Assembly (NCBI GenBank): GCA_012932865.1
Contig: SAXG01000029.1
Coordinates: 434,001-498,000 of the forward strand
Direction: 5' to 3'
DNA: 64,000 bases
Source: Amylostereum areolatum
Taxonomy: Eukaryota; Basidiomycota; Agaricomycetes; Russulales; Stereaceae
Position numbers and translations under genes: made by a program. The notes under the pieces are model-generated. The model worked only from the letters and a program-made list of their open reading frames with translations. It was not told the origin of the DNA and did no database searches. Shown here in pieces: positions 1 through 21,100 of this stretch (positions are counted from its first letter, which is position 1; each line of letters starts with the position of its first letter).

Positions 1-2
1 AA

Positions 3-1857: not shown

Positions 1858-3324
1858 GTGACCACTGTCATAGATGGAGTCGATGGTCCGGTAGTAGACA
1901 TTGTGCTTGAGTAGCTGCATGAGGTGGATAGGGTCCTGCGCCGTAGAGTATCCTGCCTTCCTTGCTAGTTGCTCAAACCTGGCAAAGTATTCATGGGCGG
2001 TGGTACCCTTTGTCTGTTTGAACCCGTCTAGTTCGACCGCGGCGCGGTGCTGCTCATTGACGTCAGTGAAGGCCCCTTTGAGTACTTTGTAGAAGTCCAC
2101 CCAGGCGACCATGGCTCCATTGGCCAGGTGTGCGTCCTTGTACTCGGCCTTCCAGGTGCGTGCTGCCTCCCCCGTCATGTAGGTGAGGATGAAGAGTACT
2201 TTGTCCTTGTCCGTCACGAGGTCATCCTCGGTGGCTCGCATGTACTCCTCGCATGACCGCATCCAGTTGTTGAAGTCCTCTCGTTTCCCAGAGAAGCCTT
2301 CAGGAGTTTTTGCGTGGACCTTCTTTCGAGGGGGTCTGGCGGCGGCGGCGGCTGGGGCACTAACAGTGACTGCAGGGGGGTTGACGGTGATGGGGGGGGC
2401 AGTGACGTTGACGGTGGGGGGTGGCAGGTTGAGGGAGGCAACAAGCACGGCAGGGATGGCGACCCATTGGCCATTTACTTCCATGAGCCATGCATCGTCA
2501 GTGCTGTTATTCATGTGTTGGATGGGAGAGCCAGTGTGGCCGATGACGATGTTCCATGTTCCACCAATTTCGGTGCAGTTGGCAAGCTCCGCGGGGAGAG
2601 GGGGTTGGGGGTCAGTGCGGATCCACTGGGCAGCCATGACTGGTTCGTCGAGGTCAGAGAAGTCTTCGTTGGTAACAGGTGGTAGGGCGGAGGCGGCGAT
2701 GAAGTCGAAGTCAGCTTCGGTGAGGTTGGGTTGGTCTCCGTCGGTGAAGTACCAGATGATGCCACTAAGCTCAGTGGTTACAAAGGCAACCTCTTGGGTG
2801 GTGTCTCCAAGTCGAGCAAAGAAGAGGTCGTCGTCTTCTTGGGTGAAGCCTAGTGGGAGGGGGAAGATGCAGCAGTTCTCGATGTCGGTGTCAGAGCCTG
2901 TTTCGGAGCTGGAGTCGGAACCGTTGAGTCCGAACGAGGGAATTGTTTATAAGTGGGTGAGGTCGATGACCTCTGGCTCTGGTGTGGGGCTGGGGGTGTT
3001 GCCTGGTGTAAGGAGGCGGTGGGTGTGTCGAGTGTCAACTGGTGTTTTCTCGTTGGGCGCGTAGAAGGACTTTGGGGGTTGCTCTAGTTTGTAGCGGTAG
3101 GTGACGTATGGGCAGAAGTAGACGTAGAGGTTTCCGTTTCCTTGTTCACTTATTTTGAGGCGATAGAAGTGGACGTCTATGACGGAGTCTTCAAGTTCTT
3201 CTACGCTGAGGGCGACCTTCCAATTGTGCCAGGCCCAAGGGTCTTTAGACTCGTTGATAAGGGAGATGATAGTATCGTCGCTGATGGGGATGAATTCTTA
3301 TACTTGCGAGCACCAATCTTCCAT
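1858..3324 (-). pseudogene. Element C gag, left copy, disrupted
   Basis: Inverted copy of the gag at 16,285-17,754 with the same two in-frame TAA stops (one at 2947-2949). The capsid-like part (MAAQWIRT onward, 2637 down to 1858) is open and reads past the junction into the LTR of A, ending at 1783. It differs from the right copy by a 3-nt indel in a C-rich tract near 2400, which locally changes the Pro-rich linker. No zinc knuckle or pol follows because the element is cut by A. Confidence 0.8.
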
Positions 3325-3795
3325 GCACGAGCCCCCAGTCGAAATGGTTACTCTGTGCGGCAAGGGAAGATTTTGTCGAGGGAAGGTGGTTCTGTTACGA
3401 GATCGCAAGACGGTCTGCCTCAGTCTTCTCGACCTGTTGGCTGTCTCTTCATCTAGGGGACACGAGCCCAAAGACTTCCTAAACCGCTTTCCTTTCGCCG
3501 CTTTTACTTGTTTCCTACACCAATGGTGCACCTTCTACTGTCACCTCTGAGCTTTAAACTCCTGGTGTTGGAGAGTCTCGAGTAGGTGTAACGTTTCGGG
3601 GAAACGTCAAGCCGGCACCGGTATACGTGCGCACGACCACAATGTCAGGGTAACGAGTCGCGTACTCTGGGGGCAACGGTCTAGGGCGGCACAGGGGAAG
3701 AACAAGGTCAGTACCAGACGGGTACTACTACTACTACGCTACAGTACGTAGGGACGGTCGTAGGGTGGTGCAAGGATAAGGAGATCTCGAGCTTA

Positions 3796-4105
3796 TGTCA
3801 GCAACGACTAGTGCGACAGCACCAAGTTACAACACAGCTGACTAGAAGATGAGGACGACAGAGGGGAGCCAATCAGACACGGCGACAGACAAGGGAAAGC
3901 AAGCAAAGTCGGTAGAATTGACTAGCTCGAGATAGGGAATATATACAGCGAGAGTGAGCCTTATATACATGAGAGGAGAGAGACTTAGGTAAGCAACCAA
4001 TACATGGCAATCAGTAAGCAGACCAAGTATAAGTAAGCAGTCGTATGTAAAAGAGCACAGCATGAGTCAGTATTGTACAGCATGAGTCAGGGGAAAGGAG
4101 TCAGA
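3796..4105 (-). repeat. Element C 5' LTR, left copy, inner part (split by element B)
   Basis: Reverse complement of 15,508-15,813. In minus orientation it carries the end CTGACA (3796) and the TATATAAGG box (about 3960). The rest of this LTR lies at 14,327-14,474, on the far side of element B. The duplicated TCAGA at 4101-4105 and 14,322-14,326 marks where B went in. Confidence 0.88.
4101..4105. other. Target site duplication of element B (TCAGA), left copy
   Basis: TCAGA abuts the first base of the 5' LTR and is repeated at 14,322-14,326 right after the 3' LTR. Removing B plus one copy restores sequence that matches the uninterrupted C LTR at 15,356-15,813, which confirms the insertion point. 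Confidence 0.95.
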
Positions 4106-4654
4106 TGTTACAACTCGCTCAAGGTATCCCATTTTCCACTTCCCCATTAGGAAAGACGTCGCTAAACGACAGGTTACAACTGTGCCCCAGCTCGTAACCG
4201 TCTCCGCGATGCAGCCACAACGATGCCACAGACCATCACCGTCTCTACGGCATAGCCACGACAGTGCCGCAGATCGTCGTCTTCTCAATAGCATAGCCAC
4301 GACGGTGCCACAGTCCCGTCTCCATAGATACCTGATACGACCGTCGCTCAATGTACATATGTTTACTCGACCTCCTTTCTTATAAAAGGAGGCTCAACGA
4401 ACGAGCCATTCCCCAGCTCGTTCTCTTTGTAAATACAGGACTGTTCTAAATAGAACCTCCTCTTAAAGCTATTAAAGAGAGCCCAAAGTAACTAAGTCGA
4501 AAGCTCGCCTAAGTCTTCCGTGAAGACTTACTGCTTCGCTTATCGACCTCAACCTTCGTATAACCGAGACGTCTGGATCACCTGATCCCACTTCTCACAC
4601 ACACGAGTACTGTAGCCTGAGCCGCTTGTCACGTGATAAGGACCGTCCTTAACA
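4106..4654 (+). repeat. 5' LTR of element B with promoter
   Basis: Starts TGTTACAA and ends CCTTAACA. TATAAAAGG begins at 4381, and the predicted RNA start AGCTCGTTCT is at 4415, 34 nt downstream, because this decamer is complementary to the primer binding site. An imperfect repeated motif (CACGACRGTGCC and similar, about 4190-4320) lies upstream and may be an enhancer-like array. No ATG occurs between 4415 and the end of the LTR. Confidence 0.93.
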
Positions 4655-4656
4655 CT

Positions 4657-4666
4657 AGAACGAGCT
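4657..4666 (+). other. Primer binding site of element B, self-priming type
   Basis: AGAACGAGCT lies 2 nt after the LTR and is the exact complement of AGCTCGTTCT at 4415-4424 in the same LTR. No tRNA-like PBS beginning TGG is seen here. The geometry equals that of Tf1, where the RNA 5' end folds back and primes reverse transcription. Confidence 0.8.
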
Positions 4667-6776
4667 CTCCTCTACATTAGCTCACCCTACAGTTTGGCGC
4701 AGAGCGTCAAACGAAACACCCACCACGGAGTCAGCGGAACAACCCGCTGAAAAAAGACCATCAGATTTTGAAATCCCTCAACTCCAATCAAACTGCAGTC
4801 AAGAATTCCCCAACGGAAACGAAGATCATCGCTGGACATTTGATCCCTATAATCTCATTTTTTACTACGACGGAGCCTTCATCGCAAAAGAAAGCAAAGG
4901 AACATACGTATACCAGTGGAACCCACCCATATACAGATACAATCTTCCCCCAGCAGCAGAATACTACAAAGATAGATCCAAAAGAGAAAAGGAAGACGGA
5001 AGCTACGACAACTCACATTGGAAGCGCCCAGATTATTCAAGACCTCATATCGGGCCCCTCTCATCAGAAGAACTCTGGAAACACCTGGACGCACAGAAAG
5101 TCGAAGAGAAACCTTACACCGGGAATATTAAGGACTACTGGGAATTTGATCCCGATACCGATGCAGCCGATACGACAACCGAACCACAGAACCCTCAGAC
5201 CGAACCCCAGCATCCTCAAGAACCCGCAACAGCTGCACCGCCTCCAGAAGAAATCGCACCAGAACCTAAGAGGACTATATCAAGCCCCCAAATTAAATCC
5301 AATCCCGGAGGAAGTCGAGAACGCAGCCCATTGAGCGCAGCAGAAACGGAAGAACGTACAGAGAACCCAACAAGATCTCCATCACCTGACGACATCTTCG
5401 GAACCACAAGAAGAAGAAAAGGAAATCTGTTCGGAAAACCCGAAAACATTACAACAATGGGAGACATTACCACCTCGATACCCGACCCCGCCACCGCACC
5501 TGGCAATGTCCCCCCTGGAGAGACCTATGTACCGTGCCAGACGCCTGCAACTCCAACACGAGCCGATCCCGCAAAACCGAGACATGAGACTCGATTCCCC
5601 ATAGGAATTGGAATAGCCGAACCAATAAGATGGAGAACGCTATCACCGCGATCACCATCACCATCCGACAGATCGATCAATGATAAGAAAGGAAAAGAAG
5701 TTCAAGACTACGTCTTCGGAAGAGGAGCAACCGCGGACCTCCCGAAAGAATCAAAGCACCCACCAGGAAATTCCCCACCAGGAGGAACAGGAACAATCGG
5801 ATCAAAACCCAATGACAAGGACAAAGGATTCAAACTAAACGCACTAGGAGTATACGATGGAAGAGACCGGGCAAAAGCAGCAAAGTTCATAGAACAATGC
5901 GTACTTCACTTCATAGCATTTCCCAACACATATAAAGCCAACATGCGTAAGATAACCTTCGTACTCTCGCATCTCACCGATGGACCGGCCCTCCACTGGG
6001 CGTCCCTTTTAATAAGCAAGATCGACAAGATACGAGATCGTGGTCTAGATCCAGAAGTATACCTTCCATGGACGGCATTCTGCGACTACTTCTTAGAAAC
6101 CTTCGGAGAAATAGACCCAGGAAGAGACACTAGATTCAATATACAGCGCCTAGAGCAAGGCACCATGGAAACCAAAGATTATATTACAATCTTCAGGGAC
6201 TATGCCATGGAAGCTGGTTACGATCATAAAGCACTGATCGACCAATTCAAGAGAGGACTGCGCAATGATATCGTAGTCGAGATCCTCAAGAGAGACCACA
6301 TCTCGAACAATATTGACGAATGGTATGAACTCGCATTACGCATTGACAATAACTGGCGAGAAGCTCAAGTATTCCAACGACATTATACGAGACCAATGAA
6401 CCCAACGAGCGACCTTACACTCCTGTACAAGAAACCACAGACGTATGTTCCATTCCGAAGAGGAAACGGAAATAAAGGAAACACTACCACTGCCAGAGTC
6501 GCTCAGACAGGAAACAACGGCCGAAACTTCAGACGCCTCACCCCACAAGAACGTACCAAACTCCAGAAATCAGGATCATGCTTCTACTGCCGGAAGCCAG
6601 GACACATCTCCAGGAACTGCCCAGAGAAACGTACCCAAACGACGATCAATGCACGAGCAGCAAATCTAACGCCGGAAGAATCCCCGATTGATCAGATCAC
6701 CAAACTCGTGAACAAGATGGACAGTGAAATGTTCGCATGCACTGCCAACATGTTCAAAGACAATCAGGGTTTTTGA
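4659..6776 (+). CDS. Element B gag with a long ATG-less N-terminal extension
   Basis: One frame is open from 4659 to the TGA at 6774-6776. The first in-frame ATG is only at 5457; the 266 codons before it contain none. The upstream part encodes an aromatic-rich segment (near 4830-5000) and then an acidic Pro/Gln-rich linker. The capsid-like gag domain spans about 5820-6400 and a zinc knuckle CFYCRKPGHISRNC is at about 6580-6620. A different-frame ATG at 5161 opens a 57-codon uORF ending at 5334. Translation may begin at a non-AUG codon or at 5457 by reinitiation. The upstream frame's length argues that it is translated. Confidence 0.85.
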   Translation, partial: NELSSTLAHPTVWRRASNETPTTESAEQPAEKRPSDFEIPQLQSNCSQEFPNGNEDHRWTFDPYNLIFYYDGAFIAKESKGTYVYQWNPPIYRYNLPPAAEYYKDRSKREKEDGSYDNSHWKRPDYSRPHIGPLSSEELWKHLDAQKVEEKPYTGNIKDYWEFDPDTDAADTTTEPQNPQTEPQHPQEPATAAPPPEEIAPEPKRTISSPQIKSNPGGSRERSPLSAAETEERTENPTRSPSPDDIFGTTRRRKGNLFGKPENITTMGDITTSIPDPATAPGNVPPGETYVPCQTPATPTRADPAKPRHETRFPIGIGIAEPIRWRTLSPRSPSPSDRSINDKKGKEVQDYVFGRGATADLPKESKHPPGNSPPGGTGTIGSKPNDKDKGFKLNALGVYDGRDRAKAAKFIEQCVLHFIAFPNTYKANMRKITFVLSHLTDGPALHWASLLISKIDKIRDRGLDPEVYLPWTAFCDYFLETFGEIDPGRDTRFNIQRLEQGTMETKDYITIFRDYAMEAGYDHKALIDQFKRGLRNDIVVEILKRDHISNNIDEWYELALRIDNNWREAQVFQRHYTRPMNPTSDLTLLYKKPQTYVPFRRGNGNKGNTTTARVAQTGNNGRNFRRLTPQERTKLQKSGSCFYCRKPGHISRNCPEKRTQTTINARAANLTPEESPIDQITKLVNKMDSEMFACTANMFKDNQGF
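6767..6773 (+). promoter_or_regulatory. -1 ribosomal frameshift site between gag and pol of element B
   Basis: In the gag frame the sequence reads CAG GGT TTT TGA. GGGTTTT fits the X-XXY-YYZ slippery rule and directly abuts the gag stop. Slipping by -1 gives GGG TTT TTG AAT, which enters the pol frame. Element A has the same arrangement with GGATTTT. Confidence 0.82.
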
Positions 6777-9700
6777 ATCGTCCTTCAAACGCGGCTGTTG
6801 AAAGGACACAGACAATGAACTTTTCAAGTCAATCTCCTGTGCAGGAAACAGAAGATGACATAAATAGAACAGTGTATATAAGGTCATACCAAGATGGAGT
6901 GGCACACGCTCCATCAATTCATATACCTGTTGTGTTTCATGGAAAGTTCCGTAAGGCCGCAGCAAAAGCGCTACTAGATAGCGGAGCAAGCAGCACCCTG
7001 ATCCATCCAGATTTTGTACGAAAACACAAGATGAATCTGATCCAGCTCAAGAAGCCGATACCAATATACAACGTCGATGGATCTCGAAACACTCTGGGAG
7101 AGATCAAACAGAAAGTATATCTTCCGATGACGATGAAAGGAATCAACGGAGAAGTTCACCGCGAAAATTTAGGGTTATTTGTCACAGCCCTGGGAGGAGA
7201 CGAAGTAATCTTAGGAACCCCTTGGCTTAAAAAACATAATCCTAGCATCGATTGGAGAAAGAGACAGATTACACTACAAACGTGTCCAGGTACGTGCTCC
7301 ACTACGAGTAAAACGATGACCGTCCAAGGGAAGGACGAACCCTTTCTACAATCATTCGAAGAACAAAAGGCAAACCATCACGCAACGATGGAAGAGCAAG
7401 AAGATCCCGAATTCGATTCTGATCTCATCGAGATCAAGACAATCAGAACATTCTATGGGAAAGCTAACATAGAAACGATACCAGTTGCAGAAGAAATGAA
7501 CGAAACCAGTACCTGGATAACGGCAAGAGCAACTAAGGCACAAGAACTCGCAGAAAGAGCGGCCCTAAGAGAGAAGAAGAAGACACTCGATGAGATGATT
7601 CCGCCCAGCTACAAACAATATCAAAAGGTATTTGAAAAGAAGGCGTCGGAACACTTTCCAATCAGTAGACCTTGGGATCACGCGATAGACCTAACTGAAG
7701 GATGGAAACCTCGGAATTGTAAACTGTACCCAATGACAGTACCAGAACGAAAGGAACTAGACACATTTGTAGACGAACATTTACGAAAAGGGTACATCCG
7801 GGAATCAAAATCGGAGATATCATCGCCCTTCTTTTTTATCAAGAAAAAAGATGGATCTCTTCGGCCAGTACAGGATTATCGCTATCTCAACTCCATCACA
7901 GTAAAAAACGAATACCCGATCCCTCTTATCTCGGATCTCATCGACAAATTAAAAGGCGCTAAAATCTTCTCAAAACTCGATCTCCGATGGGGGTATAACA
8001 ATGTTCGGATCAAAGAAGGAGATCAATGGAAAGCCGCATTTAAAACAAACAGAGGCCTATTCGAACCAATGGTGATGTTCTTTGGATTAACCAACTCGCC
8101 CGCGACATTCCAAGCAATGATGAATGCATTGTTCAAAGGATTAATAGACACAGGAAAGGTAGTAGTATACATGGACGACATATTGATATTCACGGAAACA
8201 CTCGACGAACATCGAAGACTGATGAAAGAAGCCCTTCAAATTCTAGAACGGAACGACCTGTTCCTAAAACCCGAAAAGTGCTTCTTCGAACAATCGTCAG
8301 TCGAATATCTAGGCGTGATAATCACACATAACAAGGTACAGATGGATCCGATCAAAATTCAAGGACTATCCAAATGGCCCACACCGAGAAAAGTAAAAGA
8401 AGTTCAATCCTTCCTCGGATTTGGAAATTTCTATAGATGCTTCATCAAAGATTATTCTAAGATCGCAAGACCACTATTCCAGCTCACAAAGAAGGACCAC
8501 GAGTGGAATTGGACGGCCGAATGTGAACACACTTTCAAAAGACTAAAACACGAGTTCACGTCGTCCCCCGTATTAATCATGCCTGACAAAAACAAACCAT
8601 TCCGTATAGAAAGTGATGCCTCCGACTTTGCATACGGAGCCATTCTATCACAACCAGATGAAACCGAAAGATGGCACCCGGTCGCGTACCTATCCAAATC
8701 ACTGTCACCAGCAGAACAGAACTATGAAATATACGACAAGGAACTTTTAGGAGTAGTAAAAGCTCTAGAACACTGGCGACACTATTTAGAAGGAGCGAAC
8801 TACAAGATCGAGATCTGGACAGATCATAAAAATCTAGAATACTTCACAACAGCTCAGAAACTTAATTGAAGACAAGCACGATGGAGCCTGTATCTGTCCC
8901 GCTTTGACTACACCCTAGTGCACAAACCAGGAAGTACAAACAAAGCGGACGGACTTTCTAGAAGACCAGACCATAAAGAGGACATCTCAGACAACGACGA
9001 ACGAATCTTACTCCATCCCTCGATATTCAAAGCCAGAGCCACCGGAAGAGGAACAATTGAAACGATCGGAGATAAAGAAATTCTCAAAGAACTAAGGAAC
9101 TTCTCGCACCTAGACGAAGAAGTCTGGACAGCATTGGATACGATCAAAAAATCAGGACCACGCACCCTTGCAAAAGGGATCGAAGATTGGAATTTTGAGA
9201 ACAATTTGATCATCAGAAAAGGAAAGATCTACGTACCACAAAATCTCGAACTTCGACGAATGATCCTAAAATCACATCACGATCTCCAAACGATTGGACA
9301 TCCAGGAGAAATGAAAACTCTAGAACTAGTGCAGAGAAACTTTTGGTGGCCAAAGATGATCTCTTTCGTAAAAGGCTACGTTCAAGGATGTCCCGTATGT
9401 CAGTCAACAAAAAATGTCACGCATCCGGAGAAACATCCATTACAACCTACAGAGATACCAAAACGACCATGGGAAACGATCACATCAGACTTCATCACAG
9501 ATCTTCCGATCTCCAACGGATTTGATTCAATCAACATAGTTGTCGACAGGTTCACTAAAACCGCAGTATTCACACCGTGCCTAAAGACGATCAACGCAGA
9601 AGAAACGGCTGATCTTCTGATCGACAACGTCTACAGACGATTCGGCCTATGGAAAAGAATGATATCAGATAGGGGTCCTCAATTCGCGTCCAAAGTATTC

Positions 9701-10663
9701 CAGTCCATTTGCGAAAGCCTGGGAGTTATCTCATCGCTCAGTACGGCATACCATCCCCAAACAGACGGTGAGACAGAAAGAGTGAATCAAGAACTAGAGC
9801 AATATCTTCGAGCATTTTGCAACGGAGATCAAACAAATTGGGCAAAACTTTTACCGAAAGCAGAATTTGCACACAATATACGACAACATTCAGCTACGAA
9901 AACTTCCCCATTTGAACTCCTACACGGGTATCAACCGGCTTTTAACCCAGCAATACCAACCGATCCAAGAATACCAACAGCCGAAGAAAGAATGAAGAAC
10001 TTTAAGAACGCATGGGACAACGCAGAAGCAAGTCTGGAAATAGCTGCTAAACTGATGAAAATGCAGCATGACCAAACCTTCACACTACGAGATCAACTCA
10101 AACAGGGCGACCAAGTATGGTTAGACGGAAAAAACCTTAACACGGTATACCCGAAAACCAAACTAGCACCAAAACGGTTCGGCCCATTCAAAATCGAAAA
10201 AATTATAGGACCGGTAACCTATCGCTTAGAACTACCGACAAAATGGAAAATACACCCAGTATTCCACGCAGCACTGTTAATCCCATTCAAAGAGACAGAA
10301 CAATATGGCGAAGCTTACGAAAAACCGCCTCCGGAACTAGTAAACGATGAAGAACTCTATGAACTAGAAACAATAATAGCCTCAAAACTAGACAAACGAT
10401 ATTCCGAACCATTACATTATTTTGTAAAATGGAAAGGCTACCCAGACTCCGGTAACACATGGGAACCAGCATCTAACCTCGAAGGATCAAAAGATGTGAT
10501 CGCAGAGTTCCACCAGAATAACCCCAAGGCACCGAAGTTACCACCACAGCCAATCAGAGATACCAATACAGAAGCTACTGATCGGGACGAGATCGCTGTA
10601 GCACAGCAAGAGCAGAGGCCAACGCGACAAAAGAAACGCAAGGCGAAAGCAAAACATTGGTGA
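6767..10663 (+). pseudogene. Element B pol: protease, reverse transcriptase, RNase H, integrase, chromodomain; one nonsense codon
   Basis: Expressed from gag by -1 frameshift. The protease has LLDSGAS (Asp 6977). The RT has YMDD at 8168-8179 and ends in RNase H (SDASDF near 8615; YDKELLG near 8735). The integrase carries a zinc motif (GHPGEMK to CPVCQ, about 9295-9402) and a triad of Asp 9488, Asp 9668 and a Glu near 9776. The chromodomain is at about 10,350-10,540 (YFVKWKGYPDSGNTW). A TGA at 8867-8869 interrupts KLN-RQARW where element A has KLSRRQARW, so it is an Arg-to-stop change, most simply CGA to TGA. Otherwise the 1,299-codon frame is open. Confidence 0.93.
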
Positions 10664-10742
10664 GACTTAACGCCATTCAGGCGAATGCACTGCCAACAAG
10701 AGGGGGATAAAAACCCTACGGATTCAACGAGACAGATTACCA

Positions 10743-10997
10743 ATGTCCACCACCCCAAACGCAACCAACACCTCCTCTACCAATCCAACTGTCTCACCCA
10801 ACAATGTCGACCGCCTTCGCCTCGTCTGCAACAGAACACACCACACTCAACAGGAATGCGCCCTCTGCGGAGACTGCTTCATCGCTAGATCGGCAGCAAT
10901 CCTCGCAATTAAGTCAGTACCTCCTCCGTCTAGGTCAGGACCAGACGGAAGAACAGGGGGTAAGCCGATTAGAAGCACATGGAAGAACCCTAACTAA
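10743..10997 (+). CDS. Small Cys-containing ORF after pol of element B
   Basis: An 84-codon ORF with a good start context (ACCAATG), 30 nt after a GGATAAAAA box. It has a Cys cluster (VCNRTHHTQQECALCGDCF). It overlaps the start of the coiled-coil ORF (10,804) in another frame. It is not recognised as a known family; it could be a real small protein or a leader ORF. Confidence 0.35.
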   Translation: MSTTPNATNTSSTNPTVSPNNVDRLRLVCNRTHHTQQECALCGDCFIARSAAILAIKSVPPPSRSGPDGRTGGKPIRSTWKNPN

Positions 10998-12694
10998 AGC
11001 ACCCGGATTACTCACAGGTGCTAATGCAATCCCCGTGGCCCGGAGCCACGGAAGTCCCACCGCCTGATTCCCCGATCCTAGAGAGCCAGATAGCCCGCAT
11101 GATAGCTGGAGTAGCGCTCGAACAAGCCAGAGAACGGATCAACGACCTCAAGAGGGAGTCAACCGACGTCCAGAACATCTTGAAGAACCACATCAAGATG
11201 CTCGACGGAGAACTCCATCAGCTAGACTCGAGGTACCTGACGCTCTCAACCGAAATGGAGGAGAGAGAGGTCAAGCTTCTTCGACGATTCAGGAAACTAG
11301 CGCAGCAGCTATACTCAACGTTGCAGAACTCCGAAAATTCCTTACTGAAGTTGGACATCGAGTCAACTGGCTCAACTGGGAAAGACACACCTTCCGTGCC
11401 ACTTACGAAGGAGAAATCCTCCGAAGGCGAATGGAAACTACCGGAGTTCCCCATATGTCGTCATGCGAAGGCCCAGACATCGACCTTATCTTCCATGGAC
11501 ATCACATCTCCCCGGGCTACACTATTCGACCTGATCCCATCACATCCGCCCTCGCCAGACCCCCGTTCCTTCCTAACGCCCCTCCACGACCCGTCACCGC
11601 TCCCACACCGCCAGGACCCCTACCCATCCCCAGTATCACCCAGATTAACCCCGTCCAGCCTCCCGTCACTAGAAACGGATTACCCGGAGAGCGAGTCGGA
11701 CAGCCCCTTACTTCCCCGGAGCCTAGACAACCAACCGGCAATCCGAGACCAGTACCTAGGACATCTTCTTGGTGGCCCACAATGCCTAGACCGCCAACTC
11801 CATTCCCGGTATCTGCTAGCGACACTCCCATGCCATGGCACGGAGGTCCCCCTGCTTATCCCTCGCTCCTACATTCGCACTCCGACCACGATCGAGATTC
11901 CATCGCCCAGGATCCCCGAGTCACCTCACAGCGACGTAAACATGAATCTGTCGACCCCGATGGAAGACCACTCAAGCGAGTCAGAGACGTCGGATTCTCT
12001 GATAAGTCGAGCGATAAAGAAATGCGACAAGATCCAGGAGATAATCGAGGAAATGATGGAAACCCGTGCTCACTGGAAACGGGACCGCGAGTCAACGGAC
12101 AAATCGGACAGCTCGGCAGACGAACCAGACAGTTCGATGGACGCCAAGACAAAGGAAGTAGCCGAGAATCCCTCGGACAAATGGAACGACGAGCCGACCA
12201 CATGGACGCAAGAGAAGTGGGACGCGATTCCCGCGAAGCCACGGAAACGCTGCTGGAAATGCGGCAAGCGAGGCCATCTCCGCCGAGACTGTCCCCGTCG
12301 CAAGAACGCTCCCCCTCACTTCCCCCGATCGCGGTCTTGCTATCCCCTCCGACCACAGACTCCTCTTCCTCGCCCTCGCCCGAACCATCCGGACATCGGC
12401 TACGGTCCAGGAACACTGATGTCCCACCCCCACCTCCGACATACCGATGCTACCGCCCGCGCTCACAGGCAGCTTCTGGGATTCCTCACGCGACGTGAGA
12501 GCCTGACGCATGAAGCCGCCCAACACGCCACCGAACAGTGGTTGTACTGGGAGGACGCCATGCTCCGCACTCAGCGAGAACCCCCTTCGCGCTTCAACGA
12601 CTCCTGGCGTGTTGACGATCTCTTCTGGAAGGAAGAAGATTGGGACCTGCAAGAAGCGGAAGAGTCGAAGGATCACTGGCCGGAACCCTGGTAG
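10804..12694 (+). CDS. Element B third ORF: spliced coiled-coil and zinc-knuckle protein in the env position
   Basis: Exon 1 is 10,804-10,959 (ATG at 10,804, 52 codons). A clear intron, 10,960-11,017, has donor GTAAGC, branch CCTAACT and acceptor CTCACAG. Exon 2 runs 11,018-12,694 in frame. The product (about 610 aa) has a long helical coiled-coil segment (about 11,100-11,330, rich in Glu/Lys/Leu), Ser/Pro-rich linkers, a second helical acidic stretch, a CCHC zinc knuckle CWKCGKRGHLRRDC (near 12,250-12,290) and a Trp-rich acidic C-terminus. It is not gag of this element, which already has its own zinc knuckle. It is probably an accessory nucleic-acid-binding protein; its function is unknown. 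An intron inside a retroelement implies a spliced subgenomic RNA. Confidence 0.68.
11068..12498 (+). CDS. Second long frame overlapping the zinc-knuckle ORF of element B
   Basis: A different frame is open for 476 codons inside the previous ORF. The same frame is also open upstream from ATG 10,804 to a TGA at 11,065-11,067, so it would be one 564-codon ORF but for that single TGA (possibly CGA to TGA). The stretch near 11,300-11,510 has convincing protein character (LNVAELRKFLTEVGH; TFRATYEGEILRRR). The later part is Pro/Ser/Arg-rich and may be a shadow. First internal ATG is at 11,431. It is either a truly overlapping gene or evidence of a programmed or accidental frameshift. Confidence 0.4.
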   Translation, partial: FPDPREPDSPHDSWSSARTSQRTDQRPQEGVNRRPEHLEEPHQDARRRTPSARLEVPDALNRNGGERGQASSTIQETSAAAILNVAELRKFLTEVGHRVNWLNWERHTFRATYEGEILRRRMETTGVPHMSSCEGPDIDLIFHGHHISPGYTIRPDPITSALARPPFLPNAPPRPVTAPTPPGPLPIPSITQINPVQPPVTRNGLPGERVGQPLTSPEPRQPTGNPRPVPRTSSWWPTMPRPPTPFPVSASDTPMPWHGGPPAYPSLLHSHSDHDRDSIAQDPRVTSQRRKHESVDPDGRPLKRVRDVGFSDKSSDKEMRQDPGDNRGNDGNPCSLETGPRVNGQIGQLGRRTRQFDGRQDKGSSRESLGQMERRADHMDAREVGRDSREATETLLEMRQARPSPPRLSPSQERSPSLPPIAVLLSPPTTDSSSSPSPEPSGHRLRSRNTDVPPPPPTYRCYRPRSQAASGIPHAT

Positions 12695-12775
12695 GCGCAC
12701 GGACAAACTTTTACCCACCATACGCATTCGGACTTTCTCTCTCATCATCATTGTCACGCTTTCGCATCCATCGTT

Positions 12776-12937
12776 ATGATACTTCTCGGACTAATCACGG
12801 ACTGCGCCCTCATTCGCACGCATATTTTCCTTGGACTTCTCTACTGTACATGTTCCTATCGCTATGAGGAAGGCGAAACACTTGGTATTCTCTCTGCAAT
12901 GCGCTGGCCGCGTAGCTTACTTACGACTCAGTTTTGA
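12776..12937 (+). CDS. Small hydrophobic ORF in element B 3' module
   Basis: A 53-codon ORF from ATG 12,776. The N-terminal half is hydrophobic (MILLGLITDCALIRTHIFLG) and could be a signal anchor. The C-terminal half is charged and ends LLTTQF. It follows the zinc-knuckle ORF by 81 nt. No family recognised. Confidence 0.35.
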   Translation: MILLGLITDCALIRTHIFLGLLYCTCSYRYEEGETLGILSAMRWPRSLLTTQF

Positions 12938-13084
12938 TTATGTACGAACTCTCGCTTATGATTGACGGCAATGATTACATCACTACCCTCTCCGCACCGT
13001 AAGGATAAAAAGGAAAGCCACAAAGACGGCCACATCCTCAGACATCGTCTAAACAACTCACACGCACCACCCAAACCAAACAAT

Positions 13085-13468
13085 ATGTCCTCTACCCTCA
13101 CCTCCTCCTTGCGCAACCTCTCCACCACCGACTATACTCCCCCTGCCACTCCTCCTCCCTCGCCCGTCCCTTCGCGTACTCCCACACCCGACCCACGCGA
13201 CGAGGAACTCCTCCGTCATCTCAAACGAGTCACGGAACTCCTAAACCGTCCGGACGTGGCTCGTGCCATGAAGAGGCCGAGAAGCCTTGACGAAGAAGCT
13301 ATGCGGGGGGCGAAGGGAAGATGCGGCATCAGAGGGATTTTCCGGAAACACGGACCCCGGTTCAGAAGCCCGGATCACGCGACGACGGCCAGGATAGGGC
13401 ATCGGTTAGGGTCTCCCACGATAGACGGGGAGGACGTCAAAGTAGTGGAAGCGTTGCTGAAGCGGTAG
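13085..13468 (+). CDS. 127-aa basic ORF in element B 3' module
   Basis: ATG 13,085 (ACAATATG) begins a protein with a Ser/Thr/Pro-rich N-terminus, a helical segment (DEELLRHLKRVTELLNRP) and a basic C-terminus rich in Arg/Gly. A GGATAAAAA box lies 74 nt before the ATG. No known family. The frame is also open without ATG back to 12,962. Confidence 0.45.
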   Translation: MSSTLTSSLRNLSTTDYTPPATPPPSPVPSRTPTPDPRDEELLRHLKRVTELLNRPDVARAMKRPRSLDEEAMRGAKGRCGIRGIFRKHGPRFRSPDHATTARIGHRLGSPTIDGEDVKVVEALLKR

Positions 13469-13539
13469 AATAGAATTCTATCGCTTAACTCCGGATAAGG
13501 ATAAAAGGAGTGAACATCAAAACACGAGGACTCAGAAGC

Positions 13540-13680
13540 ATGATGCAACCCACACAATCACCCGACCTTACGATCCTCACAGCAACCACTCCTCGCTGGC
13601 TTGCCGTCGTCCTGAGCGTTATCGTAGGACTCACGGTCTTCACCCTTCTCGCATCAATCATCTTCCTCCAAAGATGGTGA
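13540..13680 (+). CDS. 46-aa single-pass membrane ORF in element B 3' module
   Basis: A tandem ATGATG start at 13,540 leads to a short polar N-terminus and then about 24 hydrophobic residues (from WLAVVLSVIVGL through ASIIFL) ending QRW. This is a typical transmembrane helix with no cytoplasmic domain. It lies 34 nt after a GGATAAAA box and 92 nt before the 3' LTR, the location of env in retroviruses. It is too short for an envelope protein. Function unknown. Confidence 0.5.
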   Translation: MMQPTQSPDLTILTATTPRWLAVVLSVIVGLTVFTLLASIIFLQRW

Positions 13681-13757
13681 CGAACAAGCGATCGAGAACC
13701 GATTCAAGAAATCCCTTTAACAGTAATACAATTCGTAAATCAACGGGACGTCGATTC

Positions 13758-13772
13758 TAGAGAAGGGGCTAG
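13758..13772 (+). other. Polypurine tract of element B
   Basis: A purine-rich stretch (TAGAGAAGGGGCTAG) immediately before the 3' LTR, expected primer for plus-strand DNA synthesis. Confidence 0.6.
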
Positions 13773-14321
13773 TGTTACAACTCGCTCAAGGTATCCCATT
13801 TTCCACTTCCCCATTAGGAAAGACGTCGCTAAACGACAGGTTACGACTGTGCCCCAGCTCGTAACCGTCTCCGCGATGCAGCCACAACGATGCCACAGAC
13901 CATCACCGTCTCGACGGCATAGCCACGACAGTGCCGCAGATCGTCGTCTTCTCAATAGCATAGCCACGACGGTGCCACAGTCCCGTCTCCATAGATACCT
14001 GATACGACCGTCGCTCAATGTACATATGTTTACTCGACCTCCTTTCTTATAAAAGGAGGCTCAACGAACGAGCCATTCCCCAGCTCGTTCTCTTTGTAAA
14101 TACAGGACTGTTCTAAATAGAACCTCCTCTTAAAGCTATTAAAGAGAGCCCAAAGTAACTAAGTCGAAAGCTCGCCTAAGTCTTCCGTGAAGACTTACTG
14201 CTTCGCTTATCGACCTCAACCTTCGTATAACCGAGACGTCTGGATCACCTGATCCCACTTCTCACACACACGAGTACTGTAGCCTGAGCCGCTTGTCACG
14301 TGATAAGGACCGTCCTTAACA
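13773..14321 (+). repeat. 3' LTR of element B
   Basis: 549 bp, same length as the 5' LTR. Two substitutions were found by reading both copies (a G for A and a G for T in the upstream half). It ends CCTTAACA and is followed by the second TCAGA. Confidence 0.95.
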
Positions 14322-14326
14322 TCAGA

Positions 14327-14474
14327 CCCGGGCCGAGATGAGTCACGTGGGCCCAAGTGGGATATAGATGAACCGGGTCCAGGCCGAAGTGGAGCCGGAC
14401 TGGTGATAAACCAATAAGTCCTAAAGCGTGTAACCAATGTAAAGTAAAAAGAAAATTATAGACCGTTCATGACA
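14327..14474 (-). repeat. Element C 5' LTR, left copy, outer part
   Basis: Reverse complement of 15,356-15,503. It ends at 14,474 with TGACA, which is the LTR terminus TGTCA on the minus strand. Together with 3796-4105 it rebuilds one 458-bp C LTR. The inverted repeat stops exactly here: the next bases (CTTCC) do not match the flank of the right copy (rev. comp. TGTAG). Confidence 0.88.
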
Positions 14475-15355: not shown

Positions 15356-15813
15356 TGTCATGAACGGTCTATAATTTTCTTTTTACTTTACATCGGTTAC
15401 ACGCTTTAGGACTTATTGGTTTATCACCAGTCTGGCTCCACTTCGGCCTGGACCTGGTTCATCTATATCCCACCCGGGCCCACGTGACTCATCTCGGCCC
15501 GGGTCTGACTCCTTTCCCCTGACTCATGCTGTACAATACTGACTCATGCTGTGCTCTTTTACATACGACTGCTTACTTATACTTGGTCTGCTTACTGATT
15601 GCCATGTATTGGTTGCTTACCTAAGTCTCTCTCCTCTCATGTATATAAGGCTCACTCTCGCTGTATATATTCCCTATCTCGAGCTAGTCAATTCTACCGA
15701 CTTTGCTTGCTTTCCCTTGTCTGTCGCCGTGTCTGATTGGCTCCCCTCTGTCGTCCTCATCTTCTAGTCAGCTGTGTTGTAACTTGGTGCTGTCGCACTA
15801 GTCGTTGCTGACA
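15356..15813 (+). repeat. 5' LTR of element C, right copy
   Basis: 458 bp, TGTCATGAACGG to GTTGCTGACA. TATATAAGG begins at 15,642, and the predicted RNA start ATCTCGAGCT is at 15,676, 34 nt downstream. The end was set by the primer binding site match, which lies 2 nt beyond. Confidence 0.88.
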
Positions 15814-15815
15814 TA

Positions 15816-15825
15816 AGCTCGAGAT
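15816..15825 (+). other. Primer binding site of element C, self-priming type
   Basis: AGCTCGAGAT is the exact complement of ATCTCGAGCT at 15,676-15,685, and it lies 2 nt after the LTR end. The layout equals that of elements A and B. Confidence 0.78.
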
Positions 15826-16284
15826 CTCCTTATCCTTGCACCACCCTACGACCGTCCCTACGTACTGTAGCGTAGTAGTAGTAGTACCCGTCTGGTACTG
15901 ACCTTGTTCTTCCCCTGTGCCGCCCTAGACCGTTGCCCCCAGAGTACGCGACTCGTTACCCTGACATTGTGGTCGTGCGCACGTATACCGGTGCCGGCTT
16001 GACGTTTCCCCGAAACGTTACACCTACTCGAGACTCTCCAACACCAGGAGTTTAAAGCTCAGAGGTGACAGTAGAAGGTGCACCATTGGTGTAGGAAACA
16101 AGTAAAAGCGGCGAAAGGAAAGCGGTTTAGGAAGTCTTTGGGCTCGTGTCCCCTAGATGAAGAGACAGCCAACAGGTCGAGAAGACTGAGGCAGACCGTC
16201 TTGCGATCTCGTAACAGAACCACCTTCCCTCGACAAAATCTTCCCTTGCCGCACAGAGTAACCATTTCGACTGGGGGCTCGTGC

Positions 16285-17754
16285 ATGGAAGATTGGTGCT
16301 CGCAAGTATAAGAATTCATCCCCATCAGCGACGATACTATCATCTCCCTTATCAACGAGTCTAAAGACCCTTGGGCCTGGCACAATTGGAAGGTCGCCCT
16401 CAGCGTAGAAGAACTTGAAGACTCCGTCATAGACGTCCACTTCTATCGCCTCAAAATAAGTGAACAAGGAAACGGAAACCTCTACGTCTACTTCTGCCCA
16501 TACGTCACCTACCGCTACAAACTAGAGCAACCCCCAAAGTCCTTCTACGCGCCCAACGAGAAAACACCAGTTGACACTCGACACACCCACCGCCTCCTTA
16601 CACCAGGCAACACCCCCAGCCCCACACCAGAGCCAGAGGTCATCGACCTCACCCACTTATAAACAATTCCCTCGTTCGGACTCAACGGTTCCGACTCCAG
16701 CTCCGAAACAGGCTCTGACACCGACATCGAGAACTGCTGCATCTTCCCCCTCCCACTAGGCTTCACCCAAGAAGACGACGACCTCTTCTTTGCTCGACTT
16801 GGAGACACCACCCAAGAGGTTGCCTTTGTAACCACTGAGCTTAGTGGCATCATCTGGTACTTCACCGACGGAGACCAACCCAACCTCACCGAAGCTGACT
16901 TCGACTTCATCGCCGCCTCCGCCCTACCACCTGTTACCAACGAAGACTTCTCTGACCTCGACGAACCAGTCATGGCTGCCCAGTGGATCCGCACTGACCC
17001 CCAACCCCCTCTCCCCGCGGAGCTTGCCAACTGCACCGAAATTGGTGGAACATGGAACATCGTCATCGGCCACACTGGCTCTCCCATCCAACACATGAAT
17101 AACAGCACTGACGATGCATGGCTCATGGAAGTAAATGGCCAATGGGTCGCCATCCCTGCCGTGCTTGTTGCCTCCCTCAACCTGCCACCCCCCCACCGTC
17201 AACGTCACCTGCCCCCCCCCATCACCGTCAACCCCCCTGCAGTCACTGTTAGTGCCCCAGCCGCCGCCGCCGCCAGACCCCCTCGAAAGAAGGTCCACGC
17301 AAAAACTCCTGAAGGCTTCTCTGGGAAACGAGAGGACTTCAACAACTGGATGCGGTCATGCGAGGAGTACATGCGAGCCACCGAGGATGACCTCGTGACG
17401 GACAAGGACAAAGTACTCTTCATCCTCACCTACATGACGGGGGAGGCAGCACGCACCTGGAAGGCCGAGTACAAGGACGCACACCTGGCCAATGGAGCCA
17501 TGGTCGCCTGGGTGGACTTCTACAAAGTACTCAAAGGGGCCTTCACTGACGTCAATGAGCAGCACCGCGCCGCGGTCGAACTAGACGGGTTCAAACAGAC
17601 AAAGGGTACCACCGCCCATGAATACTTTGCCAGGTTTGAGCAACTAGCAAGGAAGGCAGGATACTCTACGGCGCAGGACCCTATCCACCTCATGCAGCTA
17701 CTCAAGCACAATGTCTACTACCGGACCATCGACTCCATCTATGACAGTGGTCAC
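16285..17754 (+). pseudogene. Element C gag, right copy, two nonsense codons, cut by element A
   Basis: One frame from ATG 16,285 to 17,754 is open except for TAA at 16,309-16,311 and TAA at 16,660-16,662. The region 16,312-16,971 has no ATG in any frame and resembles the N-terminal region of element A (shared WYF-x-D...ESDF/EADF pattern). The gag core starts near ATG 16,972; the capsid-like segment is about 17,280-17,754 (GFSGKREDFNNW). Both stops occur in the left copy too, so they predate the duplication. At 17,755 the frame runs into the LTR of A and ends at 17,829. No pol of C remains. Confidence 0.82.
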
Positions 17755-18177
17755 TGTCAGAAACGCAGTTTATGGGACCGATGGAACCGCCTAAGTCGCG
17801 ACGATGGGAGGAGCGAGAAGAAACAATAGATTCGAGAGTGCCGGGGTCTAGGGTAGTGCAACGTGCGCTACAGTACCGTATGACGAGATGGACAGTCTAG
17901 GGAAGAGGGAAGAGAAACACTGTCCTTATATACAAGTGGGAACGATGGTGTGATGCGATGCGATAGTGGTGCGAGCGGGGGGAACAATAGGAAAGGAGTC
18001 ATGGGGCGGAGGATGAAGGTCCGGAGCAGTGATGTCATAGATAAGGATGCGGAACCCCGCTCGGAAGTCCAGGCAATGACGTCATTGAAGCATGTGATGC
18101 AAGGGAAAGTCATGTGCCGTGACACGTCGCGTGTACGAGGTCTGCAAACGAAGAGAGAAATGGAGCGATCCGTGACA
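17755..18177 (-). repeat. 3' LTR of element A, right copy
   Basis: 423 bp. On the minus strand it starts TGTCACGG at 18,177 and ends CTGACA at 17,755. It is preceded by the polypurine tract (18,178-18,190). It is nearly identical to 1435-1857. Confidence 0.93.
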
Positions 18178-21100
18178 TTACCCCCCCTTTAAGACGCGCT
18201 TTCGCCTGGAGCGCGATGTCATCTGCAAGGGTAGATGCGAGAAAATCGTCAAAGGAGATGCCGAGGGAACGCACAGGGCGGGGCGCGTTTGGATGGCGTT
18301 TGTGGAAGGCGTCGATCATGTCGGTGACCTTTGAGAGCGAGGAGCGAGGGAGCCAGGTATTCTCGGAGTCAGGATAGCCTGCCCACTTGACGAGGTATTG
18401 TATGCCTTTCTTGTTGCAGGTCGGCTTCGAGTCGATGATGTCTTCAACGTCATATTCTTCTTCGTCATCAACGAGGTCAGGCGGCGGTTGTTCATAGTTT
18501 GGACCATGTGCCGTTGTCTCCTTGTACGCGGTGAGCAGCAAAGCATGGAAGACTGGGTGGATTCTCCACGTTTCGGCAGCTTCAGGCGGTAGTTCACTGG
18601 GCTAATGATGTCAACGATCTCGAAGGGTCCAAATCGTTTGGCAGCAAGCTTAGCTTTCGGCCTCGTCGTCTTCGGGTTTTTGCCTTCGAGCCAGACCTTG
18701 TCTCCAATGGCGAATGGTGTCGATTTGCTGATCGTGTCACCATTGTAGTGCTTCATTAAGTCCGATGCGAGGGCAAGGCTGGCTTTGATCTCTTGTCGGA
18801 CTTCTTCAAGTTGACGGAGGTGTTCTTCAACTGCAGGGACCTTTGAGGACGGGTTTACGGATGGGTACATCTTGGGGAGGAAGCCGTAGAGGACTTCAAA
18901 GGGAGCCTTTCCAGTAGCTGCGTGGGTGCGAGAGTTGTGAGAAAACTCGAAGAAGGGCAACCACTTCACCCAGTCGTCTTGACGGTAGTTGCAGAATACT
19001 CGCAGAAATTGCTCGAGGTTCTGGTTCTCGCGTTCGGTTTGGCCGTCTGTCTGTGGGTGATACACTGTGCTGAGGGCGGACTTGATCCCGAGCTTCTCGT
19101 TGAGTGTACGCATCACCTGTCCAGCAAATTGGGGTCCACGATCCGAGATGATCTTGTCTGCTAAGCCGTAGTGTCGGTATACCTTATCGAAGAGAATGTC
19201 GGCCGTGCCATCGCTGGTGATCTTCGTTGTACATGGGGTGGTAACCACCATCTTGGTGAGGCGATCGACCACGACATTGACGGCGTTATAGCCTTCGCAG
19301 TCAGGGAGTTCGACGATGAAGTCGGTGGAGATGACGCCAAATGGTCGATCGGGTACTTCGTTTGGGATCATGTCGACGTGGGGTCGGCTGCTCTGTGTCT
19401 TCATCGACTGGCAGGTTGCGCATCCTGCTACAAAGTCGCGGACAAAGACAGACATGCCAGGCCACCAATATTCACGACTCACAAGCTCGTAAGTCTTGAA
19501 GCGACCGGGGTGTCCAGCCAGGGGCGATTCATGGTACATTTTGACAATGTCGCGTCGCAACTCGTCATCTGCAGGGACATATACCTTTCCTCTGAACAGG
19601 ACCAGGCCTTCTTCGTAGTTCCACTCTTGAAGGTTCTTGACGAGTGTACGTGGTCCGTTTCGTAAGATGGCGTCCAGGGCTTGAACGACCTCGATGTCCT
19701 TGGTTTTGCAGTCACGGATACGTCGTCGGAGTTCGACATCACCGAGGGAGGTTACTGCTCCTGGCCTTGTTGCGCGTACTTGGAAGTACTTGGGGTCAAG
19801 CAAGACGTGCTCCTTGTTGTCATTTTCAACACCATTCTTGTGATCGGGTCGTCGAGACATTGGATCCGGGCGGTGGGAAATTCCTGGTTTATGAACGAGC
19901 GAGAAGTCAAATCGAGTGAGGAATAGAGCCCAACGTGCCTGTCGGCGGCTCAGCTTCTGTGCCGTCTTGAAGTGCTCCAGGTTCTTGTGATCTGTCCAGA
20001 TTTCGACGGTGTCAGGGGCGCCTTCGAGGTAGTGGCGCCAGGCTTCAAGCGCACGGATGATCGCAAGCAGCTCCTTGTCGTAGATGTCGTAGTTCCGTTC
20101 CGGTTCCGATAGGGCCTTGGACAGATATGCCACTGGATGCCAGTGACCGTCATCGCCTTTCTGCGAGAGTATACCTCCAGTAGCAAAGTCCGAGGCATCA
20201 ACTTCAACGAGGTAAGGCTTCTTTGGGTCAGGCATGACCAAGACGGGGGAGGAAGTAAACGCAGCTTTCAGTGCGTCAAACGCAGTTTGGCAGTCCGTCG
20301 ACCAGTCCCATGTGCAGTCCTTCTTTGTCAGGTCAAATAGGGGTCGTGCAACCTTGGAGAAGTCTTTGATGAAACGTCGGTAGAAGTTGCCGAAGCCGAG
20401 GAAGGATTGCACATCTTTGACCGTTCGTGGTGTCGGCCAGTCCTGAATACCTGCTACCTTGACGGGGTCCATAGCGATCTTGTCGTGCGAGATGATGAGT
20501 CCGAGGTATTCGACAGAGTCTTGTTCAAAGACGCATTTCTCCGGTTTGAGGAAGAGGTCGTTGTCTTGCAAACGCTGCAGAACCTGCCGTGCTATGGCAC
20601 GGTGTTCGTCCATGGTGCGAGTGAACACCAAGATGTCGTCCATGTAGATGATGACCTTGCCCGAGTCGATGAGATCCTTGAACAGTTCATTCATCATTGC
20701 CTGAAATGTCGCAGGGGAGTTCATAAGCCCGAAAAACATCACCGTAGGTTCGAAGAGACCGCGATTCGTCTTGAACGCAGCCTTCCACTCGTCGCCTTCC
20801 TTGATGCGGACATTGTTGTAGCCCCAGCGAACATCCATCTTGGAGAAGATCTTTGCACCTTTGAGGAGGTCGACAATTTCAGAGATCAGTGGCAAGGGGT
20901 ATTCATTCTTGACAGTGCCCTTGTTTAATTCTCGATAGTCCTGTACGGGATGCAGCTTTCCATCCTTTTTCTTCACAAAGAAGAACGGACTCGCCTGAGG
21001 TGACTTCGAAGGGCGGATATAGCCCTTCTTCAGGTGGTCGTCGAGGAAGGTGTCGAGTTCGATCTGCTCGGAAGGTGAGAGGGGGTAGATCTTGCACGGT

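Follow-up and report, generated by a model that had tools for sequence, protein, structure and literature searches.

Selection on two overlapping reading frames in a spliced 3' accessory module of a fungal chromodomain Ty3/Gypsy element

Downstream of pol, a young chromodomain Ty3/Gypsy element of Amylostereum areolatum carries a resident accessory coding region that evolves under purifying selection and is fixed among the copies examined. Substitution patterns indicate that both overlapping frames of this module, encoding the proteins A' and CB, are under purifying selection and by this measure form a dual-coding pair, and splicing, judged from the sequence, also joins a small Cys ORF to the second frame across the CCHC ORF. 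Among the readings proposed in an earlier note on this DNA, that of an accessory cassette is borne out; the overlapping second gene of ~490 codons was missed there. Our explanation as a whole, namely, an internally promoted, spliced mRNA with two overlapping selected ORFs (CB and A'), and X3 and X4 downstream, appears fairly probable.

The window analyzed is the whole stretch of 64,000 nt at positions 434,001-498,000 (forward strand) of contig SAXG01000029.1. The element in it (Table 1) has the features of a chromovirus (Ty3/Gypsy, Metaviridae): gag, the domain order PR-RT-RH-INT, a C-terminal chromodomain, TG...CA LTRs, and a 5-bp TSD, with TCAGA flanking both ends. As previously observed, the LTRs differ at only two of 549 sites (4178 and 4246). 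In self-priming of the Tf1 type, the PBS base-pairs with the 5' end of the transcript that the element itself produces. The 10-nt AGAACGAGCT is the reverse complement of AGCTCGTTCT at positions 4415-4424, which lies 33 nt past a TATA-like ATAAAA at 4382 inside the 5' LTR, close to the predicted transcript start, and by this complementarity positions 4657-4666 may form a self-priming site. The pol stop codon is at 10661-10663; the ORFs listed beyond it in the earlier note are indeed all open and on the plus strand.

Table 1. Features of the element and of its 3' module, in window positions.
Feature	Position	Strand	Observations
Chromodomain Ty3/Gypsy element, young	4106-14321	+	LTRs, domains
5' LTR, TGTTAC...TTAACA, 549 nt	4106-4654	+	2 mismatches to 3' LTR
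Candidate self-priming site, AGAACGAGCT	4657-4666	+	Complementarity seen in sequence
gag, Retrotrans_gag and CCHC	5331-6776	+	Pfam; open frame reaches upstream to 4659
Protease, reverse transcriptase, RNase H	6737-8869	+	RVP_2, RVT_1, RT_RNaseH
Integrase, SH3-like domain, chromodomain	8918-10663	+	Integrase_H2C2, rve, SH3_Tf2-1, Chromo
TATA-like ATAAAA	10707-10712	+	28/30 copies; 36 nt 5' of CB ATG, 97 nt 5' of A' ATG
CB exon 1, Cys-containing, frame C	10743-10959	+	ATG in 45/46 copies
A' exon 1, 52 codons, frame B	10804-10959	+	Overlaps CB exon 1 in other frame; ATG in 46/46 copies
Intron, 58 nt, GTAAGC...CTAAC...CACAG	10960-11017	+	Exact loss in two copies
A' exon 2, 558 codons: long N-terminal helix/coiled coil, CCHC zinc knuckle, Trp-rich tail	11018-12694	+	
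CB exon 2, Pro/Ser-rich, basic, bipartite-NLS-like motif	11018-12498	+	Overlaps A' exon 2
TATA-like ATAAAA	13005-13010	+	30/30 copies; 80 nt 5' of X3 ATG
X3, basic protein, 127 aa	13085-13468	+	Purifying selection
TATA-like ATAAAA	13501-13506	+	21/30 copies; 42 nt 5' of X4 ATG
X4, single-pass membrane protein	13543-13680	+	ATG in 44/44 copies; S 1.67, N 0.47
3' LTR	13773-14321	+	549 sites compared with 5' LTR

The module occurs in dozens of copies in the same genome, and their divergence of ~10% makes selection readable. The search gave 45 matches (40 of 218 candidates being scored), 29 of which cover at least 95% of the module. All copies come from one genome and were recovered through similarity to the module itself; hence, the expectation that the module would recur in other copies under selection holds as regards recurrence and selection, while its presence was preselected. 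From 50 copies, 48 entered the class test (400 of 1128 pairs; L043 and L048 are truncated before exon 2), 47, with a recognizable junction, the survey of spliced ORFs, 46 the ATG counts and codon tests (two intron-lost copies being also left out), and 44 the indel analysis; the counts of TATA-like boxes and part of the survey of second-frame openness cover the first 30 copies. Below, frame A is that of A' exon 2, frame B that of A' exon 1 and CB exon 2, and frame C that of CB exon 1.

The earlier note also suggested capture of host sequence by the element; a recent capture, confined to one copy or subfamily, we consider very unlikely. It is absent from the standard gypsy plan and its GC content is above that of pol, but many diverged copies, albeit recovered by module similarity, carry it under purifying selection, and searches of Pfam and PDB yielded no host-like domain except a zinc knuckle resembling retroviral nucleocapsids.

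The intron is real, because two copies (L042 and L050) have lost precisely positions 10960-11017. Its removal yields the 610-aa A', which agrees with the spliced coiled-coil and CCHC ORF of the earlier note; A exon 2 has no stop in the matched stretch in 56 of the best 78 matches. The small Cys ORF (10743-10997) is open as described, but rather than standing alone it would supply the first exon of the longer CB (~565 aa), which overlaps A' for ~1.48 kb (~490-520 codons). The exon 1 frame of CB is constrained from position 10807 onward, with a weak signal upstream of it, and the exon 2 frame, read unspliced from 10804, is free of stops in 49 of the best 78 matches. Both spliced ORFs are intact (at least 590 aa for A' and at least 545 aa for CB) in 18 of 47 copies, and neither in 16. 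In the window copy, a TGA at 11065-11067 interrupts CB despite the near-identical LTRs; thus, either CB is dispensable in cis or this copy is dead. An acceptor-like CTTAAC...CAG is present at 10666-10680; for a retrovirus-like 5'-leader donor joined to an acceptor at ~10680, zero spliced retrocopies were found among 50 loci, and in L041 and L036, derivatives with gag fused to late pol, the junctions fall at microhomology.

One line of evidence for dual coding is the class test, where values are observed/expected ratios relative to the spacer spectrum. The test passed over sites that had a further difference no more than 2 nt away, which is part of the reason why the noncoding spacer control itself gives 0.50-0.59, not 1, for the main classes; the coding ratios are therefore to be set against coding controls, not against 1. 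With a dummy second frame in three such controls (integrase, the A-only tail, and X3), changes synonymous in A and nonsynonymous in the second frame score 1.39-1.55, versus 0.85 [0.73-0.97] in the overlap, and those introducing a stop score 0.84-1.78, versus 0.18 [0.09-0.29], so that A-synonymous, B-stopping changes are ~5-10 times rarer in the overlap than in single-coding regions. Conversely, A-nonsynonymous changes score 0.59 in the overlap when synonymous in B and 0.29 when both frames change, the same two classes being near equal in the controls (0.16/0.16, 0.09/0.12, and 0.30/0.30). At approximately 11340-11459, the variable sites are third positions of frame B, not of frame A. The amino acids of frame B are weakly constrained in much of the overlap: the A-synonymous/B-nonsynonymous ratio is 1.32 at 11184-11347 and 1.11-1.35 at 11676-12167.

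These observations weigh against A' being the only gene, with codon use or base composition leaving the second frame open by chance. A C-rich, T-poor composition makes stops scarcer in this region, and the same +2 frame is mildly depleted of stops elsewhere in the element (22 versus 28.6 in shuffles for integrase, 30 versus 37.4 for PR-RT; P 0.05 in both). At the N-terminus of gag, an open second frame looks alike: it has no stop in 141 of the 150 matches listed, the class test is suggestive (five sequences, the decayed L026 being dropped from six), and the shuffles give P = 0.06-0.07, or P 0.38 over a longer stretch of the window; chance openness is thus possible in this element. However, in the module, synonymous-codon shuffles of A predict 11-13 stops in frame B, and none was observed in any of six copies, chosen as intact ones; not one of 2000 shuffles per copy reached zero. 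Taking this together with frame B's avoidance of stop-creating and amino-acid-changing substitutions that A would permit, for which the dummy frames of the three controls have no parallel, and with the varying third positions of frame B, we regard chance openness as extremely unlikely.

Indels in the overlap also fit coding: 15 of the 26 distinct events are multiples of three, and these are the 15 that exceed 2 nt, versus 6 of 42 in the spacer (6 of 15 among those longer than 2 nt). Indels of 1-2 nt are common too in exon 1 (4 of 15 events being multiples of three), X3 (2 of 14), and integrase (3 of 22). This pattern supports coding, but does not tell one frame from two.

A second protein might also arise by intron retention, unspliced RNA giving a ~565-aa frame B protein from 10804 and spliced RNA giving A'. 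Indeed, frame B is open and in frame through the intron in 44 of 46 copies (the exceptions being one stop and one 57-nt intron), stop-creating changes in the intron score 0.16 in frame B (though 0.00 and 0.20 in the remaining frames), and 158 copies fit the intron-containing pattern versus two intron-lost ones, as if unspliced RNA mattered. Yet the codon test reveals no constraint on the intron when read in this frame (S 0.43, N 0.49), and a second protein made by read-through is accordingly disfavored; L023 has a stop inside the intron in frame B with both spliced ORFs intact; and frame C upstream is constrained, while intron retention does not require a full-length frame C. We therefore hold retention to be decidedly unlikely and prefer splicing of one mRNA that carries CB and A' in different frames.

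Transcription of this mRNA may start from the TATA-like promoter at 10707, and X3 and X4 may each be expressed from their own TATA-like box, the boxes being conserved and the promoter activity putative. ATAAAA is no commoner in the element than expected from base composition (6 seen, ~7 expected), and so the argument is solely one of position and conservation. An ATG at 10685, in frame A and present in 46 of 46 copies, opens a 67-codon uORF (10685-10888), which a transcript starting further upstream would need to bypass. The CB ATG sits in a weak context, while the A' ATG has A at -3 in most copies, and ribosomes would probably reach the latter past the former by leaky scanning.

In PDB, the matches of A' are zinc-knuckle proteins (19 sequences with E of 1 or less, best E 0.0011), HIV nucleocapsids for the most part; X3 has one match (E 0.62), and CB none. 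The structure model of A' exon 2 (mean pLDDT 48) contains confident helices at residues 19-113 and ~325-363; that of X3 has pLDDT 58.9. X3 lacks a stop in the matched stretch in 143 of the best 150 matches. Both the 127-aa basic ORF and the 46-aa membrane ORF of the earlier note prove to be under purifying selection, the latter (X4) measuring 45 aa when read from the conserved ATG, 46 aa from the preceding one, and 45-49 aa across nine copies. The proposed 53-aa hydrophobic ORF (12776-12937, plus strand) was rejected as a gene: its ATG is present in just 7 of 45 copies and the codon test is weak (S 0.55, N 0.35). A conserved stretch lies within it at ~12795-12842.

The suggestion of an envelope-like cassette finds no counterpart in Pfam, where no env family was detected, and the only membrane protein identified by inspection is X4; env of retroviruses or errantiviruses is, by contrast, a large glycoprotein of the membrane that has a signal peptide as well as fusion and TM domains. 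A structural role is still conceivable, with A' acting as a scaffold or an additional nucleocapsid and X4 as the membrane anchor of an enveloped or membrane-associated particle. The nucleocapsid-like knuckle and the long modeled helix of A' and the selection on X4 are in line with it; the CCHC already present in gag and the lack of an env family are not, and we rate this role as possible, though unlikely.

Under the preferred explanation of a spliced CB/A' mRNA, A', with its presumed dimerizing helix and its CCHC knuckle, and the basic, NLS-like CB might bind the element RNA in the nucleus, and could aid export or packaging of the unspliced, intron-containing genomic RNA by analogy with CERV of Cer1, while X4 might anchor in or permeabilize a membrane. 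More tentatively, the module may represent an independently evolved, complex-retrovirus style of organization, with internal promoters, a spliced accessory mRNA, an intron kept in the genomic RNA, and overprinted regulators (an acidic coiled-coil/zinc-knuckle protein and a basic one with a nuclear signal) controlling the fate of the element's intron-containing RNA; we see this as a minority possibility.

Extended overlaps between genes are typical of size-constrained viruses, and a double reading of ~500 codons would be an unusual, virus-like economy for such a retrotransposon. Among the titles and abstract openings returned by our literature searches, none describes a fungal LTR element with a pair of accessory genes that overlap and are spliced. 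The ~1.48-kb overlap resides in a cellular retrotransposon, many copies of which exist at graded levels of divergence, and hence the upkeep of an overprinted gene can be traced inside one genome.

Downstream of pol, foamy viruses carry the accessory genes tas/bet; they use an internal promoter and splicing there, and have a true env as well. The module is similar in its 3' accessory genes, putative internal promoter, and splicing, with no sequence relation claimed. A published fungal chromodomain Ty3/Gypsy element likewise has an extra ORF beside gag-pol; splicing, overlapping frames, and a multi-gene 3' module do not appear in the description consulted. Another fungal LTR element, BcGypsy1/Boty, carries the additional ORF brtn (PMC8365987), termed an antisense gene in the title of a reference therein, whereas the module is wholly on the sense strand. 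A further parallel is Cer1 of C. elegans, an LTR element in which a spliced mRNA yields an extra large protein, CERV, and the genomic RNA must stay unspliced (PMC10309623). CERV is described as one large protein, with three domains predicted to be structured and a Cys-rich loop of possible RNA-binding function; in the description consulted, no overprinted partner or internal promoter appears (PMC10309623). With a Rev/CERV-like export regulator, a nuclear protein made from spliced mRNA and required for unspliced genomic RNA to be exported, the module would share the spliced mRNA, which is supported here, and the NLS-like motif of CB, the export role being putative. The 158 intron-containing versus two intron-lost copies also offer a natural test, outside animals, of keeping genomic RNA unspliced.

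In the chromodomain Ty3/Gypsy element, the module (the 3' region after the pol stop) carries an intron, which is proved by its exact loss in two copies from the same genome, L042 and L050, whose exon-1 sequence types differ. A pattern search found 158 intron-containing copies, and a search with the spliced junction gave exact matches only in L042 and L050 and four more with one mismatch. Splicing joins the frame from 10804 to the CCHC frame, yielding A' (610 aa), and the frame from 10743 to the other downstream frame, yielding CB (about 565 aa); the spliced CCHC ORF of about 610 aa proposed in the earlier note is thus borne out. In the window copy, A' is intact and CB stops after 88 codons (TGA at 11065-11067). 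Among 47 copies, the count excluding three of the 50 compared that had no recognisable junction, both proteins are intact in 18, only A' in nine, only CB in four, and neither in 16.

Features of the element and its surroundings (window coordinates)
Feature	Position	Strand	Remarks
Element	4106-14321	+	two 549-nt LTRs; TCAGA at either flank
Element genes			gag with CCHC; PR-RT-RNase H; integrase with chromodomain
Module	10664-13757	+
CB	10743-10959, 11018-12498	+	spliced
A'	10804-10959, 11018-12694	+	spliced
Intron	10960-11017	+	58 nt; GTAAGC donor, CTAAC branch-like site, CACAG acceptor
X3	13085-13468	+
X4	13543-13680	+
Inverted repeat	1-4105, 15504-19610		flanks element; 99.9%, 0 mismatches, 4 gap openings, 4108 aligned positions
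Second inverted pair	14322-14474, 15356-15508		153 nt

Both overlapping frames, A (that of A') and B (that of CB exon 2), are under selection. As the noncoding spacer gave 0.50-0.59 in the main classes, the yardstick for the overlap is provided by single-coding controls, each with a dummy second frame: integrase (9950-10600), the A-only tail (12502-12690), and X3. Here, changes synonymous in the real frame were indifferent to the dummy frame, with observed/expected ratios of 1.55, 1.46, and 1.39, respectively, if the dummy frame was changed, and 0.93, 1.78, and 0.84 if a dummy stop was gained or lost. In the overlap (11020-12495), the ratios for A-synonymous changes were 0.85 (interval 0.73-0.97) for those changing B and 0.18 (0.09-0.29) for those affecting B stops. 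A-nonsynonymous changes silent in B gave 0.59 vs. 0.29 for changes altering both frames, whereas the controls give almost the same value for either class; A stops silent in B were observed once against 497 expected, and changes silent in both frames gave 1.53 with a wide interval (0.79-2.36). Frame B is tightest at 11348-11511 and 12332-12495 (A-synonymous/B-nonsynonymous ratios 0.21 and 0.41) and loose at 11184-11347 (1.32) and 11676-12167 (1.11-1.35), both frames being loose at 12004-12167; stop-creating changes in B are rare in all nine sub-windows (0 to 0.47). Synonymous shuffles of A predict 11-13 frame-B stops, and none was observed in six out of six intact copies; the deficit in the equivalent frame of integrase (22 vs. 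28.6 expected) and PR-RT (30 vs. 37.4) is far smaller. Exon 1 is likewise constrained in both frames, with 0.41 and 0.39 for changes silent in one frame and not in the other.

The module recurs in other copies, as the earlier note had proposed to check: a DNA search gave 45 matches from the best 40 of 218 candidates, 29 of the 45 listed covering at least 95% of the module. Protein searches gave at least 78 matches for A (56 of the 78 listed stop-free), at least 78 for the overlapping frame, queried as the unspliced reading from 10804 (49 of the 78 listed stop-free), and at least 150 for X3. With the module as the query throughout, these counts cover module-bearing copies and give no share of module-less relatives. 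Collections of viral and prokaryote contigs yielded no relative, which says little about fungi; what can be said on conservation across species, on the clade of the element and on novelty is based on one genome and open-access literature. L041 and L036 are internal-deletion derivatives with differing junctions, at microhomology, that lost most of gag-pol and kept the 3' module; L005 and L007 carry an insertion of approximately 500 bp at 10689, inside the module start, with a duplication of approximately 5 bp.

The single-sequence model of A' exon 2 has confident helices at residues 19-113 and approximately 325-363 (mean pLDDT, the model confidence, 48); A' has a pI of 5.8 and a CCHC knuckle in nine out of nine copies scanned. 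CB has no Pfam match of value; in L021 its pI is 10.2 and Pro and Ser make up 25%. Its motif QRRxHxSVDPDGRxxKxIR, present in nine out of nine aligned copies, may be read as bipartite-NLS-like. Two smaller ORFs of the earlier note hold up: the basic one is X3 (127 aa, pI 10.8, stop-free in 143 of the 150 matches listed), and the membrane one is X4 (45-49 aa, a single span), with codon-test ratios of 1.67 for synonymous and 0.47 for nonsynonymous changes. Blocks at 12795-12842 and approximately 12964-12985, strongly conserved in the fast-evolving A'-X3 spacer with no clear codon signal, are possibly regulatory.

The LTRs indeed differ at only two sites, and AGAACGAGCT, directly 3' of the 5' LTR, is the reverse complement of AGCTCGTTCT, 33 nt past the TATA-like box of the LTR. 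This complementarity may serve self-priming, as in chromoviruses of the Tf1 type. The chromovirus type agrees with a fungal host, as given in the earlier note. In this 57.1-Mb genome, the element is inserted in one arm of a nearly perfect inverted repeat, and the opposite arm has the unoccupied site, where TCAGA stands only once. Judged against the LTR divergence, the arms appear too young; the repeat is possibly an assembly artefact. Overlapping the gag N-terminus (4660-5456), a second open frame has 217 codons in the window, often 307-324 in the matches listed, 141 of 150 being stop-free. In the gag frame, the earliest ATG seen is at 5457, whereas the ATG that first follows the predicted start of transcription, at 5161, is in the second frame. 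This may reflect a further overlap or initiation at a non-AUG codon, but shuffles give only P ~0.06 for the open frame.

Read-through of the intron is unlikely as the main use, since frame B shows no amino-acid constraint across it (synonymous 0.43, nonsynonymous 0.49). The simplest route to both proteins would be leaky scanning from the CB ATG to the A' ATG, because the former has C and the latter mostly A at -3, and both are conserved (45 and 46 of 46 copies). The ATG at 10685, conserved in 46/46 copies, fits this model less well, unless transcription begins downstream. A TATA-like ATAAAA is found at 10707, 36 nt 5' of the CB ATG, in 28 of 30 copies, ahead of X3 in 30 and of X4 in 21, and in none within the spacer 12700-12980; since its count in the element (six vs. 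approximately seven expected) matches composition, the case for a TATA-like box is one of position and conservation only. The stretch 10681-10739 is conserved with no codon signal, and an acceptor-like site ends at 10680.

The intron is kept in nearly every copy counted, though each passed through RNA, and therefore most of the RNA that is reverse transcribed must have remained unspliced. Possibly no regulator is involved and a cap-distant intron in a long genomic RNA is just spliced poorly. If there is one, A' and CB could jointly act in genomic RNA export, the main rival being a structural role of A' and X4. For export, a parallel is Cer1, whose nuclear protein CERV is made from a spliced mRNA and is required for genomic RNA export (PMC10309623). 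Cer1 thus solves its need for unspliced RNA via CERV, and A' together with CB may be the counterpart here.
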